Shown: piece by piece, positions 6,822 through 19,298 of the stretch
Layout: each line of letters starts with the position of its first letter
Numbering within the stretch: position 1 is the stretch's first letter
Source: an uncultured Alphaproteobacteria bacterium
GTDB taxonomy: Bacteria > Pseudomonadota > Alphaproteobacteria > Rs-D84
Direction of reading: 5' to 3'
DNA: 64,000 bases
Assembly (NCBI GenBank): GCA_944389555.1
Contig: CALXMU010000003.1
Span: forward strand, 62,001 to 126,000
Notes under the pieces: generated by a model
Seen by the model: only the letters and a program-made list of their open reading frames with translations
Told to the model about the DNA's origin: nothing
Databases searched by the model: none
Position numbers and translations under genes: made by a program

Positions 6822-7764
6822 ACGCAATGCACGGAATCATCCTGAATCACAAATTAAACAAATAAGAAAATCTATTACCGAATTTGGTTTTAATAATCCG
6901 ATCCTGATTGATGAACACTGCGAGATTATCGCAGGCCACGGCAGATATATCGCCGCAAAACAAATGGGACTTAGCACCGTTCCCACTATCACACTTTCAC
7001 ACCTGAACGAAAAGCAAAAACGAGCATATAGACTGGCAGATAATAAAATTGCAGAAAATGGCGGATGGAATCTGGAACTGTTGCAATTGGAAATCAAAGA
7101 TTTAGAACAGATATGTGCGGGCGATTTGGACATACGAATTACCGGCTTTAACGATGCAGACTTAGATTAAATAATCAATCTGGGCAACACCGTTCCTGCA
7201 GACCCAAAAGCCAACCACATACCGTTTATACCCGAAGATGAAATAGTGTCTGTGCCTGGCGATATTTGGCAAATTGGCCCGCACAGAATTATTTGTGGCA
7301 ACAGTTTAGAAGAATCTACTTTTAATCAACTAATGGACGGGGCGGTGGCCGATACTGTTTTGCAAGATCCGCCATACAATATAAAAATCAATGGGCATGT
7401 TTGCGGTTCGGGCGCAATACACCATAAAGAGTTTGCCATGGCATCGGGCGAGATATCAGCGGAAGAATTTATCAATTTCCTGAAACAAAACTGTTTACTG
7501 TGCAAGGCACACTCTAAGGATGGCGCCCTGCACTATAATTTTATGGACTGGCGCCACATATCGGAAATTATGACCGCAGGAAATGCCGTATTTGATGAAT
7601 TTATCAATATGTGCGTATGGGTAAAAAAGACCGGTGGCATGGGGTCGCTGTATCGCAGTCAGCACGAATTATGCTTTATATTCCGCAACGGTAAGACAAG
7701 CCATATGAATAACGTGCAATTGGGCAAACATGGCCGATATCGCACCAATGTATGGCAATATGCG
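6769..7764 (+). pseudogene. ParB-domain DNA methyltransferase, nonsense-interrupted and truncated
   Basis: The first 133 codons encode a ParB/Srx-type N-terminal domain (IAGHGRY, LADNKIAENGGW). An in-frame TAA at 7168-7170 interrupts the frame. The same frame then resumes with a linker and the methyltransferase catalytic region, including QDPPYNIKI. It stays collinear with the intact copy at 14780-16090 until about YAG near 7764, where the sequence switches to a serine-recombinase tail. The C-terminal SAM-binding motif FxGxG and target-recognition part are therefore lost. A reinitiation start with modest context exists near 7246, but with the C terminus gone activity is unlikely. Confidence 0.85.
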
Positions 7765-8027
7765 GGGGCAATGGCACGCTGAGCATTACAGAAAATAACC
7801 ACTTGATATTAAAGGCCTTTGCAACTGCGTGGAGATATAAAGAACTGTATGAACAAGGTATTGGGTCCGATAACATTTGCAAAAAAGAACATATATCTCC
7901 ACGCCAGCTTTATAGACACTTAGATTTAGTTTATATGAATCCGGATAAAATAAATGAAATTTTGTCTGGAACAACTTCTGTAAAAATTAATGAGCTATTC
8001 CAGATTGCAAAAACATTTTTGATTTAA
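7764..8027 (+). pseudogene. serine recombinase C-terminal fragment
   Basis: From about 7764 the +3 frame reads GNGTLSITENNHLILKAFAT, followed by a helix-turn-helix-like region ending QLYRHLDLVYMNPDKIN. It aligns along its length with the C-terminal 90 residues of the intact recombinase at 27920-29527 (GNDTILTVSENNNLIVKAFA, TIYRYLDIAYMNPELVN). The catalytic resolvase domain is absent. It abuts the methyltransferase remnant, so one internal deletion removed everything between those genes in an element built like the one downstream. Confidence 0.85.
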
Positions 8028-14779: not shown

Positions 14780-16090
14780 ATGGCAGAAATAAAAGTTACA
14801 TATGTTGACTTAAATTCACTAAAAACATACCAAAACAACCCAAAAGAACACCCGCAAAAGCAGGTGCATCAAATCGCAGATTCTATTAAAAAATTCGGTT
14901 TTAACAACCCTATTCTAATAGATGAGAACAACGAAATAATTGCTGGTCACGGCAGATATCTGGCAGCACAACAATTGCAAATGGAGACCGTGCCTGTCAT
15001 TCGTTTAACGCACCTGGACGAAACGCAAAAGCGTGTTTATCGCCTGGCCGACAATAAAATTTCAGAAAACGGTGGCTGGAACAAAGAGCTGTTAGCGTTG
15101 GAAATATCGGATCTGGAACAGATTTATGTGGACGACATAACAATCACAGGGTTTGAGCAAATTGAAATCAACAACCTGATAACAGACACAACGCCAACCC
15201 CAGACAAAAAACTGAATAAAATAGAATTTGTTCCCGAAGACGAAATCATAACGCAACCTGGCGACGTATGGCAGCTGGGGCGTCATAAAATCATATGCGC
15301 CAACAGTCTGGACGAAGAGAGTTTCGCCCGTCTACTGTCCGACAAACGCGCCAATATGGTCATCCAAGACCCGCCTTACAACGTTAAGATTTCGGGACAC
15401 GTTTGCGGATGTGGAAATATACGCCACGATGAATTTCCCATGGCGTCTGGAGAAATGTCACCCGAAGAATTTACCAAATTTTTAACAGATAACTTTACCC
15501 TGTGCCAAAAGTATTCTAATGATGGCGCAATGCAATATAACTTTATGGATTGGCGCCATATAACAGAAATAAAAACCGCCTTAGATTCCGTATTTGGTGA
15601 TTTTATAAACCTGTGCGTTTGGGTAAAGACATCTGGTGGCATGGGCAGTCTTTACCGCAGTCAACACGAACTGTGCTTTGTATATAAAAATGGCGACGCA
15701 CCAAACGTTAACAATATTCAACTGGGCAAGTACGGCAGATACCGAACAAACGTCTGGAATTATGCTGGTGTAAATTCTTTTGGTGTGCACAGAGATGACC
15801 TGAAGATGCACCCGACGGTAAAGCCCGTAGAAATGATACGCGATGCAATTTTAGACGTTACAAACCTGCACGACACTGTATTAGACAGTTTTCTGGGTTC
15901 GGGCAGCACGCTTATCGCCTGTGAACAGATAGAGCGTACCTGTTTTGGTATAGAGTTGGAGCCCAAATACATAGACACAACAATTCGCAGATTTCAAAAA
16001 CTATTTGGTACAGATGCCGTAAACATATCAAACGGCAAAACATATAACGAATTATTACAGGAGAAAAAAGATGGAATTAAACAACAATAA
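14780..16090 (+). CDS. ParB-domain DNA methyltransferase
   Basis: 436 residues. The N-terminal ParB/Srx-like domain (about 1-125) carries IAGHGRY and LADNKISENGGW. The catalytic domain has motif IV QDPPYN near residue 195 and the SAM motif DSFLGSGST near residue 375, the IV-then-I order of beta-class amino methyltransferases (N6-adenine or N4-cytosine). Phage and gene-transfer-agent-like elements often carry such genes beside the terminase. AAGGAGG precedes the start and the end overlaps the next gene by 20 bases. A broken paralogue lies at 6769. It probably methylates element or host DNA without a partner nuclease. Confidence 0.9.
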   Translation: MAEIKVTYVDLNSLKTYQNNPKEHPQKQVHQIADSIKKFGFNNPILIDENNEIIAGHGRYLAAQQLQMETVPVIRLTHLDETQKRVYRLADNKISENGGWNKELLALEISDLEQIYVDDITITGFEQIEINNLITDTTPTPDKKLNKIEFVPEDEIITQPGDVWQLGRHKIICANSLDEESFARLLSDKRANMVIQDPPYNVKISGHVCGCGNIRHDEFPMASGEMSPEEFTKFLTDNFTLCQKYSNDGAMQYNFMDWRHITEIKTALDSVFGDFINLCVWVKTSGGMGSLYRSQHELCFVYKNGDAPNVNNIQLGKYGRYRTNVWNYAGVNSFGVHRDDLKMHPTVKPVEMIRDAILDVTNLHDTVLDSFLGSGSTLIACEQIERTCFGIELEPKYIDTTIRRFQKLFGTDAVNISNGKTYNELLQEKKDGIKQQ

Positions 16091-16448
16091 AAACTACAAA
16101 GTCGGCTATCAAAATCCGCCCCTTGAAACGCGCTTCAAAAAAGGCGTCTCTGGCAATCGCAAAGGTCGTCCAAAGGGCCACAAAAACTTTAACACCAAAT
16201 TAAAGTATTTTCTGGACGGTAAAATTTCAATTACCAACGCAGGTGAAACCGTAGAAGCTACAAAAAGCGACGCTATTTTACTGCAACTAACCAACAAAGC
16301 CGCCCAAGGTGACAACAAGGCAATCAAAACACTGTTGCCCAAAATGGAAGCGCTTTACAATGCAGACGCCGAAAGAACAGCCCGTGCATTTAGTAAAACG
16401 GATATGGAAATATTAAAAGATTTCTTGGATGAAAACGCCAACAATTAA
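16071..16448 (+). CDS. DUF5681 protein, likely terminase small-subunit partner
   Basis: 125 residues. The N terminus has the DUF5681 signature: a NPPLETRFKKGVSGNRKGRP segment, followed by a helical domain. Proteins of this type sit immediately before terminase large subunits in alphaproteobacterial prophages, so a DNA-recognition role in packaging is inferred. It overlaps the methyltransferase upstream by 20 bases and the terminase downstream by 20, implying a coupled operon. Confidence 0.8.
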   Translation: MELNNNKNYKVGYQNPPLETRFKKGVSGNRKGRPKGHKNFNTKLKYFLDGKISITNAGETVEATKSDAILLQLTNKAAQGDNKAIKTLLPKMEALYNADAERTARAFSKTDMEILKDFLDENANN

Positions 16449-17877
16449 AGTCTTAAACGCAATCTTACGGACAGACTTTCATGCCTTTGTGCAGAAAGTC
16501 TTTGAAACAGTATCGCCGAACGCAACGTATCTTGATAATTGGCACATAAAGTTAATATGTTCTGAAATATCAGATATGTTGGCAGGCAACAACAGACGGC
16601 TGATAATAAATATTCCCCCAAGATATATGAAGTCCATTATCTGTTCCGTTGCCCTGCCCGCTTTTATTCTGGGGCACAACCCAAAGGCAACAGTTATATG
16701 CGTCAGTTATTCTGATGACTTGTCCTTAAAGTTCGCAAATGATTGCAGAAATGTAATGGAATCCGATTGGTATAAAGATATGTTCCCTGGCACACGTATC
16801 AGTAAATCCAGACGTTCCGTTGCAGACTTTGAAACCACCAAAAACGGTGGCAGGCTGTCCACATCTGTTGGAGGAACACTTACTGGACGTGGGGCAGATT
16901 TTATAGTCATAGACGACCCAATAAAGCCAACAGATGCCATGTCCGACATAATTCGTGAAAAAGTAAACCAGTGGTTTCAATCCACACTTTGTTCACGTCT
17001 GAATGATAAAAAGCTTGGTTGTATATTGCTGATAATGCAAAGACTGCACGAAAACGATATGACGGGCTTTTTATTAAATTCAGATATGGGCTTTAAACAT
17101 TTGTGCCTGCCCGTAGTTGCCGAAGAAGACGAACATTGGGAAATTAAACGCCCCTTTTCAAATAAAACTTTATACATAACTCGTGCACCAGGCGATTTAT
17201 TACATCCCGACCGTGATGGTGAGCAAGAAATTCTGGAGCTTCGCAAGACTATGGGCGAACTAGCGTTTGCCTGCCAATACCAACAACGCCCCGCCCCATT
17301 GGTCGGCAACCTTATTCATAAGGATTGGATACACTACTACAACGAATTACCTGACAAGATGGACAGAATATTTTTATCTTGGGACACTGCCAGCAAAGTC
17401 AGTGCAAATAATGCTTTTTCAGCATGTAGCGTTATAGGTATTAAAAATCAAAAATTATATTTATTGCAAATTTATCGTGAACGATTGGAATTCCCGGCAC
17501 TTTGTAGAAAAATTTCCGAACTGCACGAAGAATACAAAAATAAATACCCATCGGCGCTTATAACTACACTAATAGAAGATGCATCATCGGGACCATCTTT
17601 GGCACAGCAATTACAGTATGAACACAGAGATATGAAAGTAACACTAGTCAAACCAGACACAGATAAAATCACACGCCTGGAAAGCGTATCAAGTTATATT
17701 GAAAATGGATTGATATTATTTCCAGCAGATGTCGCAAATTGGTGGCAAGATTTTTCCAGTGAACTGTTTACTTTCCCGAACACGACTTTCAAAGACCAGT
17801 GCGATGCATTTTCACAGTGCCTTCACGTTGCGGCACCAATTGCGACAAAACCTGCCCCACAAGTGTTCGTTTTATAA
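16429..17877 (+). CDS. phage terminase large subunit
   Basis: 482 residues. The ATPase part has a Walker-A-like NIPPRYMKS near residue 62, a VSYSDDLS strand, GGTLTGRGAD and a Walker B FIVIDDP near residue 160. The nuclease part has SWDTASK near residue 306 and IEDASSG near residue 385, the acidic residues expected of an RNase-H-fold nuclease. This is the motor that packages DNA into heads. No portal, capsid or tail genes follow, so this element is a defective phage or a satellite-like element rather than a full prophage. Confidence 0.9.
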   Translation: MKTPTIKVLNAILRTDFHAFVQKVFETVSPNATYLDNWHIKLICSEISDMLAGNNRRLIINIPPRYMKSIICSVALPAFILGHNPKATVICVSYSDDLSLKFANDCRNVMESDWYKDMFPGTRISKSRRSVADFETTKNGGRLSTSVGGTLTGRGADFIVIDDPIKPTDAMSDIIREKVNQWFQSTLCSRLNDKKLGCILLIMQRLHENDMTGFLLNSDMGFKHLCLPVVAEEDEHWEIKRPFSNKTLYITRAPGDLLHPDRDGEQEILELRKTMGELAFACQYQQRPAPLVGNLIHKDWIHYYNELPDKMDRIFLSWDTASKVSANNAFSACSVIGIKNQKLYLLQIYRERLEFPALCRKISELHEEYKNKYPSALITTLIEDASSGPSLAQQLQYEHRDMKVTLVKPDTDKITRLESVSSYIENGLILFPADVANWWQDFSSELFTFPNTTFKDQCDAFSQCLHVAAPIATKPAPQVFVL

Positions 17878-17914
17878 GTTGATAAAAACACACATCCGTG
17901 ATAAACTGAAAGAG

Positions 17915-18090
17915 ATATCAGGAGTTCTGATATTGGGGTGTAGTAACCTCTTCACATGCGTCAGCGCTGACGAAACAGTGCCCTCAACCATAATGGTTGG
18001 AGGGCTGGCGAATAAGACCTATGTCAAATAAGCCACACAATTCATGTGATTGTTACTAACCTCCAACCACCAGATTTCTTGGTGGTTTTT
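17915..18090 (+). ncRNA. candidate structured RNA downstream of terL
   Basis: The intergenic stretch folds into nested perfect stems. ATATCAG/CTGATAT (17915-17933) is a hairpin. TAGTAAC (17941-17947) pairs with GTTACTA (18052-18058), extended by GGGG (17935-17938) with CTCC (18061-18064). Inside that closing stem are CGTCA/TGACG (17959-17972), GCCCTC-AACCA with TGGTT-GGAGGGC (17980-18005, one bulge), TGGC/GCCA (18006-18035) around GAC/GTC (18016-18025), and CACA/TGTG (18036-18048). An intrinsic terminator ends it. No coding frame explains this. Position beside the terminase recalls phage packaging RNAs, but that is only analogy. Confidence 0.6.
18065..18090 (+). terminator. intrinsic terminator of the terL/ncRNA transcript
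   Basis: AACCACC (18065-18071), a nine-base loop, GGTGGTT (18081-18087) and a T run. It stands before the lipoprotein gene, which has its own GGAGG ribosome site. Confidence 0.85.
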
Positions 18091-18108
18091 AACTAATACG
18101 GAGGTCCT

Positions 18109-18639
18109 ATGAGAAAAACATTATTATGCCTAGCAGTTTTATGTTTAACTGGTTGCTACAGCATGGCGCACCTAGAAGACCCAATATCTGCAGAACAAGG
18201 TATTGAGTGTGAATACGATAACTTTGCCAAAACAAATATCTGCAACGGCAGACACATTGTTTCAAAGGCACAAGATTTAACCTCTCCAAGTGCAAACAGT
18301 TACCTTAGCATTGACTTAGCACAACAAGATTTATCACCAAAATTAATTATAAGAGTTAATCAGACCAACAATTGGACATTCCCAAAGCAAGTCATTGATT
18401 CAAATGGCCAAAAACTTGCAACAACCCGAATAGATTCTCAAATACCAGTATGCTACAGCGGTGTTTGTATGACTTGGGAATATATTAGTGTAAATCTTAC
18501 AATGGATTATTTGCGTCAACATGCAGACACAGGCTTTAGCATGAAAACCTATGGAATACGAGGAAACGTAATTATAGAAGTACCTGCTGCATATGTACAA
18601 GGCTTCCTGAATTATATAGACAAACATAAGGCCATATAA
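18109..18639 (+). CDS. putative lipoprotein
   Basis: 176 residues. The signal peptide ends in the lipobox LTGC (Cys about residue 16), so it is probably anchored in a membrane facing the periplasm. The mature part contains a repeat-free beta-rich region with VCYSGVCMTWEY near residue 120. The family is not recognised. GGAGG lies upstream of the ATG. Its stop codon shares a base with the start of the GIY-YIG gene (TAATG), so the two are coupled. Confidence 0.65.
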   Translation: MRKTLLCLAVLCLTGCYSMAHLEDPISAEQGIECEYDNFAKTNICNGRHIVSKAQDLTSPSANSYLSIDLAQQDLSPKLIIRVNQTNNWTFPKQVIDSNGQKLATTRIDSQIPVCYSGVCMTWEYISVNLTMDYLRQHADTGFSMKTYGIRGNVIIEVPAAYVQGFLNYIDKHKAI

Positions 18640-19298
18640 TGAACCGCGGTATTATATATGTAATGTGGAATGAATTGTTCCCAGAATTAGTAAAAATTGG
18701 CATAACACAGGGGCACACCAGTGCAGACGTTGAAAAACGCAGGAAAGAATTATCTCACGGTGAAAATATGCCACAGCCATATGAAGCAAAGTTCGCTATT
18801 TGTGTAAACAACTATGAGAAAATAGAATCCGTCATCCACAAAAGTCTAAACAAACTACGGCATAATCCACACCGTGAATTTTTCAAACTAAGTGTAGATG
18901 AAGCCATAAGTTTATTATCAAGCTATATAATCAGTGGTGGCGCCGTTGAAGTCCCGATAAAGAACTCTTTCTTGCCAGAAGAAAAGAAGGCCATTAAAAA
19001 CCTGGAAAAACAGCGTTCTGCGATTACTTTTCGCTCATTAGATATACCTGTTGGCACAACACTGACCTTTATATCTGCACCGCAATTAAAGGTAAAAACT
19101 TATAATGACTCACGTCGAGTTGTTTTACCAAACGGAGAAACAACCACACTATCAATAGCCGCGAAACGATTACGCGACCAAACAAAACCACAAAATGGAA
19201 TTAAGGGGCTACCCGATGGTGCAAAAGATTTTGCATACCGTGGTAAAAGCCTGTGGGAATTATCATTGGAGAAGCAACGTAATTATATAGAAGCATAA
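18639..19298 (+). CDS. GIY-YIG/T5orf172-type nuclease-like protein
   Basis: 219 residues. The N-terminal 95 or so match the Mug113/T5orf172 branch of the GIY-YIG fold: GIIYVMWN, VKIGITQG, RRKEL, IESVIHKSLN and HREFFKLSVDEAI. This gives the Y, R, H and E expected at the active site, although the second tyrosine motif is VKIG. The C-terminal half is unassigned. Such proteins occur in phages and defence loci. It is coupled to the preceding lipoprotein gene. Confidence 0.75.
   Translation: MNRGIIYVMWNELFPELVKIGITQGHTSADVEKRRKELSHGENMPQPYEAKFAICVNNYEKIESVIHKSLNKLRHNPHREFFKLSVDEAISLLSSYIISGGAVEVPIKNSFLPEEKKAIKNLEKQRSAITFRSLDIPVGTTLTFISAPQLKVKTYNDSRRVVLPNGETTTLSIAAKRLRDQTKPQNGIKGLPDGAKDFAYRGKSLWELSLEKQRNYIEA

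Follow-up and report, generated by a model that had tools for sequence, protein, structure and literature searches.

A multicopy leader RNA behind a terminase gene of an uncultured alphaproteobacterium has the features of a transcription attenuator and is probably akin to the Brt RNAs of Bartonella

Introduction

The Brt RNAs of Bartonella, of which Brt1-9 accompany the trp genes (Tu et al. 2017, PMC5387305; review PMC8070961), are the closest described counterparts of the RNA analysed here. Brt transcripts are 194-203 nt long; B. henselae has nine of them, and other species have up to 34. Each precedes a poorly transcribed HTH gene, and they have been reported as unique to Bartonella (PMC5387305). 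Deletion of the 3' end of brt1 raised the transcription of trp1, and the signal for Brt has been suggested to be heme (PMC8070961). An additional action of Brt1 in trans has also been proposed (PMC5387305).

We analysed a 64,000-nt stretch of alphaproteobacterial DNA, referred to below as the window, in which a sequence-only reading had marked a candidate structured RNA next to the terminase gene, with a hint that it might be a packaging RNA. As suggested by our comparative analysis, the most probable explanation, to which we assign a probability of about 0.8, is a cis-acting leader RNA that would control the following gene by transcription attenuation in a riboswitch-like manner.

Architecture of the leader RNA

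The fold and the match of covariance model R2 (17913-18092 on the plus strand, 137.8 bits) place the whole structured leader RNA at 17913-18092(+); all features named below lie on the same strand. The terminase large subunit gene (16429-17877) is its upstream neighbour and stands outside the unit. A predicted sigma70-like promoter, consisting of the -35 element TTGATA (17879-17884), a 17-nt spacer and the -10 element TAAACT (17902-17907), is followed by hairpin P0 (17914-17934) with the pentaloop GAGTT, a loop that mostly reads G-N-R-U-U among the copies; all eight pairs of P0 are double-changed and 97% of its cells are paired. Directly after P0 begins the closing stem P1 (17935-17939 and 17941-17947 with 18052-18063), which encloses P1b, P2, P3 and P4 and whose seven upper pairs are all formed in 93 of 93 aligned copies, several of them with up to four pair types. 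Stem P1b joins TCACATG (17952-17958) to CATGTGA (18043-18049), and its four core pairs, each double-changed, are 96.7% paired in the 93 copies.

Hairpin P2 (17960-17971) is shortened or missing in some copies. Hairpin P3 (17980-18005) has a 3' arm, GGTTGGAGG (17995-18003), that is also complementary to 18060-18068, and hairpin P4 (18006-18035) carries the conserved internal-loop motif GAATA...AATAA, with the loop GAAUAUAUUGAAUAA nearly invariant within the family. A predicted pseudoknot, CAAT (18038-18041) with ATTG (18049-18052), flanks the 3' strand of P1b. The switch strand CCTCCAACC (18060-18068) is common to P1, to the base of the terminator and to an alternative antiterminator pairing with P3. 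The intrinsic terminator, AACCACCA...TGGTGGTT with its T-tract (18065-18090), is followed ten nt further on by the ribosome-binding site GGAGG (18100-18104) of a gene (18109-18639) coding for a 176-aa lipoprotein-like exported protein (MRKTLLCLAVLCLTGC...), for which no Pfam match was found.

The stems proposed in the sequence-only reading, namely an outer stem (17935-17947/18052-18064), a hairpin preceding it, the hairpins enclosed by it and a final terminator, are all present. The same reading held their density to be unlikely in AT-rich spacer DNA, and folding of a 236-nt stretch agrees, with a minimum free energy of -74.9 kcal/mol against -54.0 +/- 4.2 for dinucleotide shuffles (z=-5.0; none of 200 shuffles reached this value). 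Its statement that the gap has no coding frame needs a correction, as the region is traversed by a 100-codon mechanical ORF (17729-18031), although there is no support for this ORF being a gene.

Covariation, pseudoknot and switch

Model R1 was built from nine sequences, including six near relatives in which the RNA is likewise kept behind terL. The expected covariation downstream of related terminases was evident already at this stage, as 17 of 50 pairs were double-changed in the nine relatives and none of 500 shuffles reached 17. In the alignment of 93 copies that belongs to R2, standard pairs make up 94.0% of cells, 43 of the 53 pairs are double-changed, and the covariation score is 0.587 versus 0.173 for shuffles and at most 0.084 with the partners slid. 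G-U cells outnumber A-C cells by 349 to 53, which fits an RNA of the plus strand. Conservation and covariation together strongly support the earlier proposal of a discrete structured RNA with a terminator of its own.

An unbiased scan of mutual information returned 21 top column pairs that all belong to the structure, followed by two non-nested couplings, columns 223-245 and 179-254. The former corresponds to the pseudoknot, in which C[A/T]AT before the 3' strand of P1b would pair with AT[T/A]G after it. This pairing is concordant in 93 of 93 copies, each of CAAT/ATTG or CTAT/ATAG type with no mixed rows, and two rows have G-U at the last pair. In an independent set of 29 copies, taken from other families and outside model building, the complement is kept in 22 copies versus at most 15 in shuffles, and the variants CCGT/ACGG, CTGT/ACAG and CCAT/ATGG occur as well. 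A conserved core with a structure supported by covariation, as is typical of riboswitches, is thus present in this family.

The second coupling (179-254) joins the 3' arm of P3 to CTCCAACC, the strand that completes P1 and opens the terminator. This antiterminator pairing is formed in 93.6% of cells. A complementarity of 8.79 bp versus 7.51 bp for shuffles was obtained for it, and it survives changes such as CTCCTGACC/GGTCAGGAGG and CTTCCTGCC/GGCAGGAAG. The independent set gave a mean of 7.72 bp versus 5.66 for shuffles (shuffle maximum 6.38). Part of this covariation is shared with P3 itself, because the 5' arm of P3 resembles the switch strand. As judged from the alignments, covariation between the P3 arm and the switch strand is the signature of an attenuator switch, and the mutually exclusive structures expected of a riboswitch expression platform are seen here at the level of sequence covariation.

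When forced, the antiterminator fold is weaker than the minimum-free-energy fold by 14.6 kcal/mol on average, and in the window copy the two reach -57.6 and -72.8 kcal/mol, respectively. With the terminated fold favoured by about 15 kcal/mol, the default would be termination, and read-through would need a ligand, a protein or a kinetic effect.

Distribution of the leader family

A DNA search located two further, diverged copies in the window's own genome (882 kb in 5 contigs); they follow rplQ and trxB, respectively, and a short signal-peptide gene comes immediately after each. With R1, seven plus-sense copies were detected in this genome, i.e. six away from the window terminase, and 24 in the single-contig genome G003. 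The RNA was found by R1 in 170 of the 183 genomes of the family, in all 13 genera, and reaches 56 copies in about 1 Mb, yet it is missing from Rfam. The window RNA is thus one copy of a large family of leaders that occurs in many alphaproteobacteria with reduced genomes. Model R2 returned 7 copies in the window's genome (G000), 30 in G003, 56 in G145 and 27 in G153, and it also detected the RNA in two other families of the order. The R2 search found no copies in G009 and G049. These two near relatives have good completeness and sit beside genomes that carry as many as 56, and they may be useful for finding a trans-acting partner.

Across the class, R2 was positive at E<=1e-4 in 24 of 385 evenly drawn genomes; in the phylum-wide control, the window's genome was the sole positive among 399. 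Matches outside the order reach 1e-19, the E-values of these models being rough, and the positive genomes there are 0.9-2.1 Mb in size. The host genomes are mostly MAGs. The same leader was also observed in three IMG/VR contigs (L142 12021-12195, L144 769-943 and L143 8442-8615), in two of which it precedes a gene for a signal-peptide protein; these leaders may travel on viruses or may lie in host DNA that was wrongly filed as viral.

A cmscan with all 4227 Rfam families gave no match over this region. Nothing relevant came from Rfam searches of the window and of 14 diverse loci at gathering score, or of the element with E-values allowed up to 10, and a tRNA/tmRNA search gave none at the RNA site.

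Transcription unit and downstream genes

In 111 aligned copies, P0 is preceded at a distance of 6-12 nt by a TTG...TATAAT promoter pattern, and in the copies that were examined a sigma70-like promoter stands just 5' of P0 in each and a terminator is present in most. An ORF begins 14-107 nt (median about 27) past the terminator in 117 of 124 copies, and 87 of these 117 ORFs have a signal-peptide-like N terminus according to a simple hydropathy rule. One Cys-containing exported family follows 31 copies; other families behind the leader are Cys-rich exported proteins, outer-membrane beta-barrels (PF13505) and small HTH regulators (HTH_3). Outside the order, the downstream genes code for lipoproteins, beta-barrels, pilin-like proteins and HTH regulators. 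In other alphaproteobacteria (L211 290-495 and L235-L242), the leader precedes pilin-like genes, e.g., GFSLVELSIVLL and GSITVEAIVMLGLIAALTPILYKHV, and some of these leaders have no U-tract after the switch strand, which suggests a different expression platform.

Tandem arrays of four units each were found in L111 (822-1705) and L172 (100-912). Every unit has its own promoter and terminator, no genes intervene, and only the last unit precedes an HTH-like gene; G145 also has tandem leader arrays. Such gene-less tandem copies are unexplained by the leader model alone.

The DNA around the window copy shows signs of gene exchange. The window is about 97% identical to the DNA of a relative (L014) up to the end of the terminator (18090) and again from 19295, and between these points window 18091-19294 takes the place of L014 7663-8832. 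The segment holds the lipoprotein gene and a T5orf172 gene in the window, versus a 383-aa nuclease-like gene (MSTARIVQRP...) in the relatives, and leader copies may serve as recombination points for such exchange. Two further observations concern the terminase region: the ParB/N6-N4 methyltransferase gene preceding the terminase genes has a second, about 67% identical stretch in the window (6871-7766 and 14780-16090), and near the terminase region of the relative lie two adjacent reverse-transcriptase-like genes (L014 3-2555), a possible defence module.

Proposed mechanism and alternative explanations

In the proposed mechanism the promoter would set the 5' end of the RNA at P0, and the transcript would fold into P0, P1, P1b, P2, P3, P4 and the pseudoknot, with the terminator preceding the ribosome-binding site; both steps are supported by sequence. 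The switch strand would then have a choice between completing P1 together with the terminator and pairing with the 3' arm of P3; covariation is seen for both pairings. The default fold is expected to terminate and leave the gene off. A small molecule or protein may recognise the pseudoknotted core, which comprises P1, P1b, the pseudoknot and the conserved loop of P4, and this recognition would tip the balance to read-through and switch the gene on, or the reverse. Since the same device stands before many genes of exported proteins and small HTH proteins, one signal could set a genome-wide programme of surface proteins. The family suggests that surface proteins may be under the control of RNA in organisms that have very few transcription factors.

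The explanations that compete with attenuation differ widely in weight. That the terminated RNA of about 175 nt is itself the product, acting as a multicopy trans-acting sRNA or protein-binding sponge with the downstream gene secondary, is rather unlikely; it draws on the tandem copies that have a promoter and a terminator with no gene between them (four in a row in L111; the arrays of G145) and the trans action also proposed for Brt1 (PMC5387305). The regular start of an ORF 14-107 nt downstream in 117 of 124 copies argues against such a product, as does the covariation of the antiterminator strand, which only cis control needs. A translational mode, in which the CCTCC strand occludes the ribosome-binding site and control does not proceed by termination, appears quite improbable: CCTCC is indeed complementary to GGAGG, and Brt and some intermediates have no clear U-tract after the switch strand, but covariation between the ribosome-binding site and the switch strand is barely above that of shuffles (4.40 vs 4.23, shuffle maximum 4.37), and most copies of the family have a strong intrinsic terminator.

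Function at the DNA level, as a mobile or recombination element that folds as a single strand in the manner of attC or REP and reshuffles the genes downstream, is regarded as very unlikely. The exact stop of homology to L014 at the terminator and its return at 19295 with a different gene between, as well as the dispersed and tandem copies, would fit such an element. The G-U to A-C ratio of 349:53, the conservation of promoter and terminator around the fold and the fixed spacing to the ribosome-binding site and start codon nevertheless point to RNA, and homologous recombination between leader copies can explain the gene exchange. The packaging-RNA hint has hardly any credibility left, whether read as a phage packaging RNA or as another terminase-associated RNA. 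It drew on the site directly after terL, an arrangement kept in six relatives, but the other copies examined in the own genome have no terminase upstream, its diverged paralogues following rplQ or trxB, and relatives carry up to 56 copies. Furthermore, the RNA comes with its own promoter and is coupled in position to the start of the next gene, other leaders precede unrelated genes, and no Rfam family matches, that of the phage packaging RNA included. Similar DNA was not found in phage records; viral TerL relatives (L004-L011, 32-33% identity) were left out of the comparison as too distant.

Comparison with known systems

With phage packaging RNA (pRNA), the present RNA shares only its position beside a terminase gene, and it differs in having no Rfam match, in not being tied to the terminase and in being multicopy in the chromosome. 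With transcription-terminating riboswitches it has several features in common: a 5' leader, a conserved pseudoknotted core, exclusive terminator and antiterminator pairings and a ribosome-binding site behind them. In contrast to those riboswitches, the present family has an extreme copy number (as many as 56 in about 1 Mb), its targets are mostly exported proteins and not a metabolic pathway, and it forms tandem units each with its own promoter.

Like the present family, Brt is a multicopy leader of about 175-200 nt with its own promoter in an alphaproteobacterial host, and it lies about 15 nt before a gene and attenuates that gene. In the five copies on Bartonella plasmids that make up the Brt alignment, P0, P1, P1b and P3 could be recognised by reading the sequences. 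A pseudoknot CTGA/TCAG is seen around P1b, and TTCCGGGAG, which forms the 3' arm of P3, can be paired to CTCCCGGAA following P1, so that the P1b-flanking pseudoknot and the complementarity of the P3 arm to the strand after P1 are shared as well. The differences lie in the genes behind the leader (HTH (Trp) genes for Brt, mostly genes of exported proteins here), in the P0 and P4 loops and copy numbers, and in the aligned Brt copies having no clear U-tract.

On the Brt of pBGR3, R2 scored 4.4 bits on the right strand, i.e. no direct recognition; a 17.8-bit antisense match on the same plasmid was set aside, because genuine copies also give antisense matches. Viral contigs scanned for exact patterns of a Brt-like P1 yielded apparent coding sequence only. 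A model of Brt alone (R3), run over 45 loci (98.6 kb), gave three matches at E<1, namely L196, L197 and L198, which are all elements that R2 had already found in G195, a genome of the same order as the window's. In the class search, four of the five R3-positive genomes were among the 24 R2-positive ones. R2 in turn matches loci L239 and L237 of R3, the strands of the two models agree at L196-L198, L237 and L239, and the intermediates carry the Brt P4 motif AUGUCCA...AAAAG. Since R3 and R2 coincide in location and strand where they match intermediate genomes, the present leader family and the Bartonella Brt attenuators probably belong to one superfamily, as far as sequence comparison can tell.

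Of the marks of a Brt RNA, the window copy has promoter-like and terminator sequences and a covarying switch pairing that may correspond to the promoter and the attenuating 3' end, and a lipoprotein-like gene directly downstream where Brt has an HTH (Trp) gene; elsewhere, HTH_3 proteins are encoded behind a minority of copies. The window RNA is not classed as Brt, because the HTH neighbour is absent and the direct match fails. We lean slightly towards a broader view in which Brt would be an outlying branch of one alphaproteobacterial attenuator superfamily that has been amplified in reduced-genome gut lineages to dozens of promoter-leader-terminator units, one signal gating much of the exported-protein repertoire and the tandem terminator-only copies possibly being sRNAs. 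The orphan and supposedly genus-specific Brt regulators would hereby be tied to a far larger body of sequences, in which fold, pseudoknot and switch are defined by covariation, so that what Brt-type RNAs sense becomes testable with minimal constructs.
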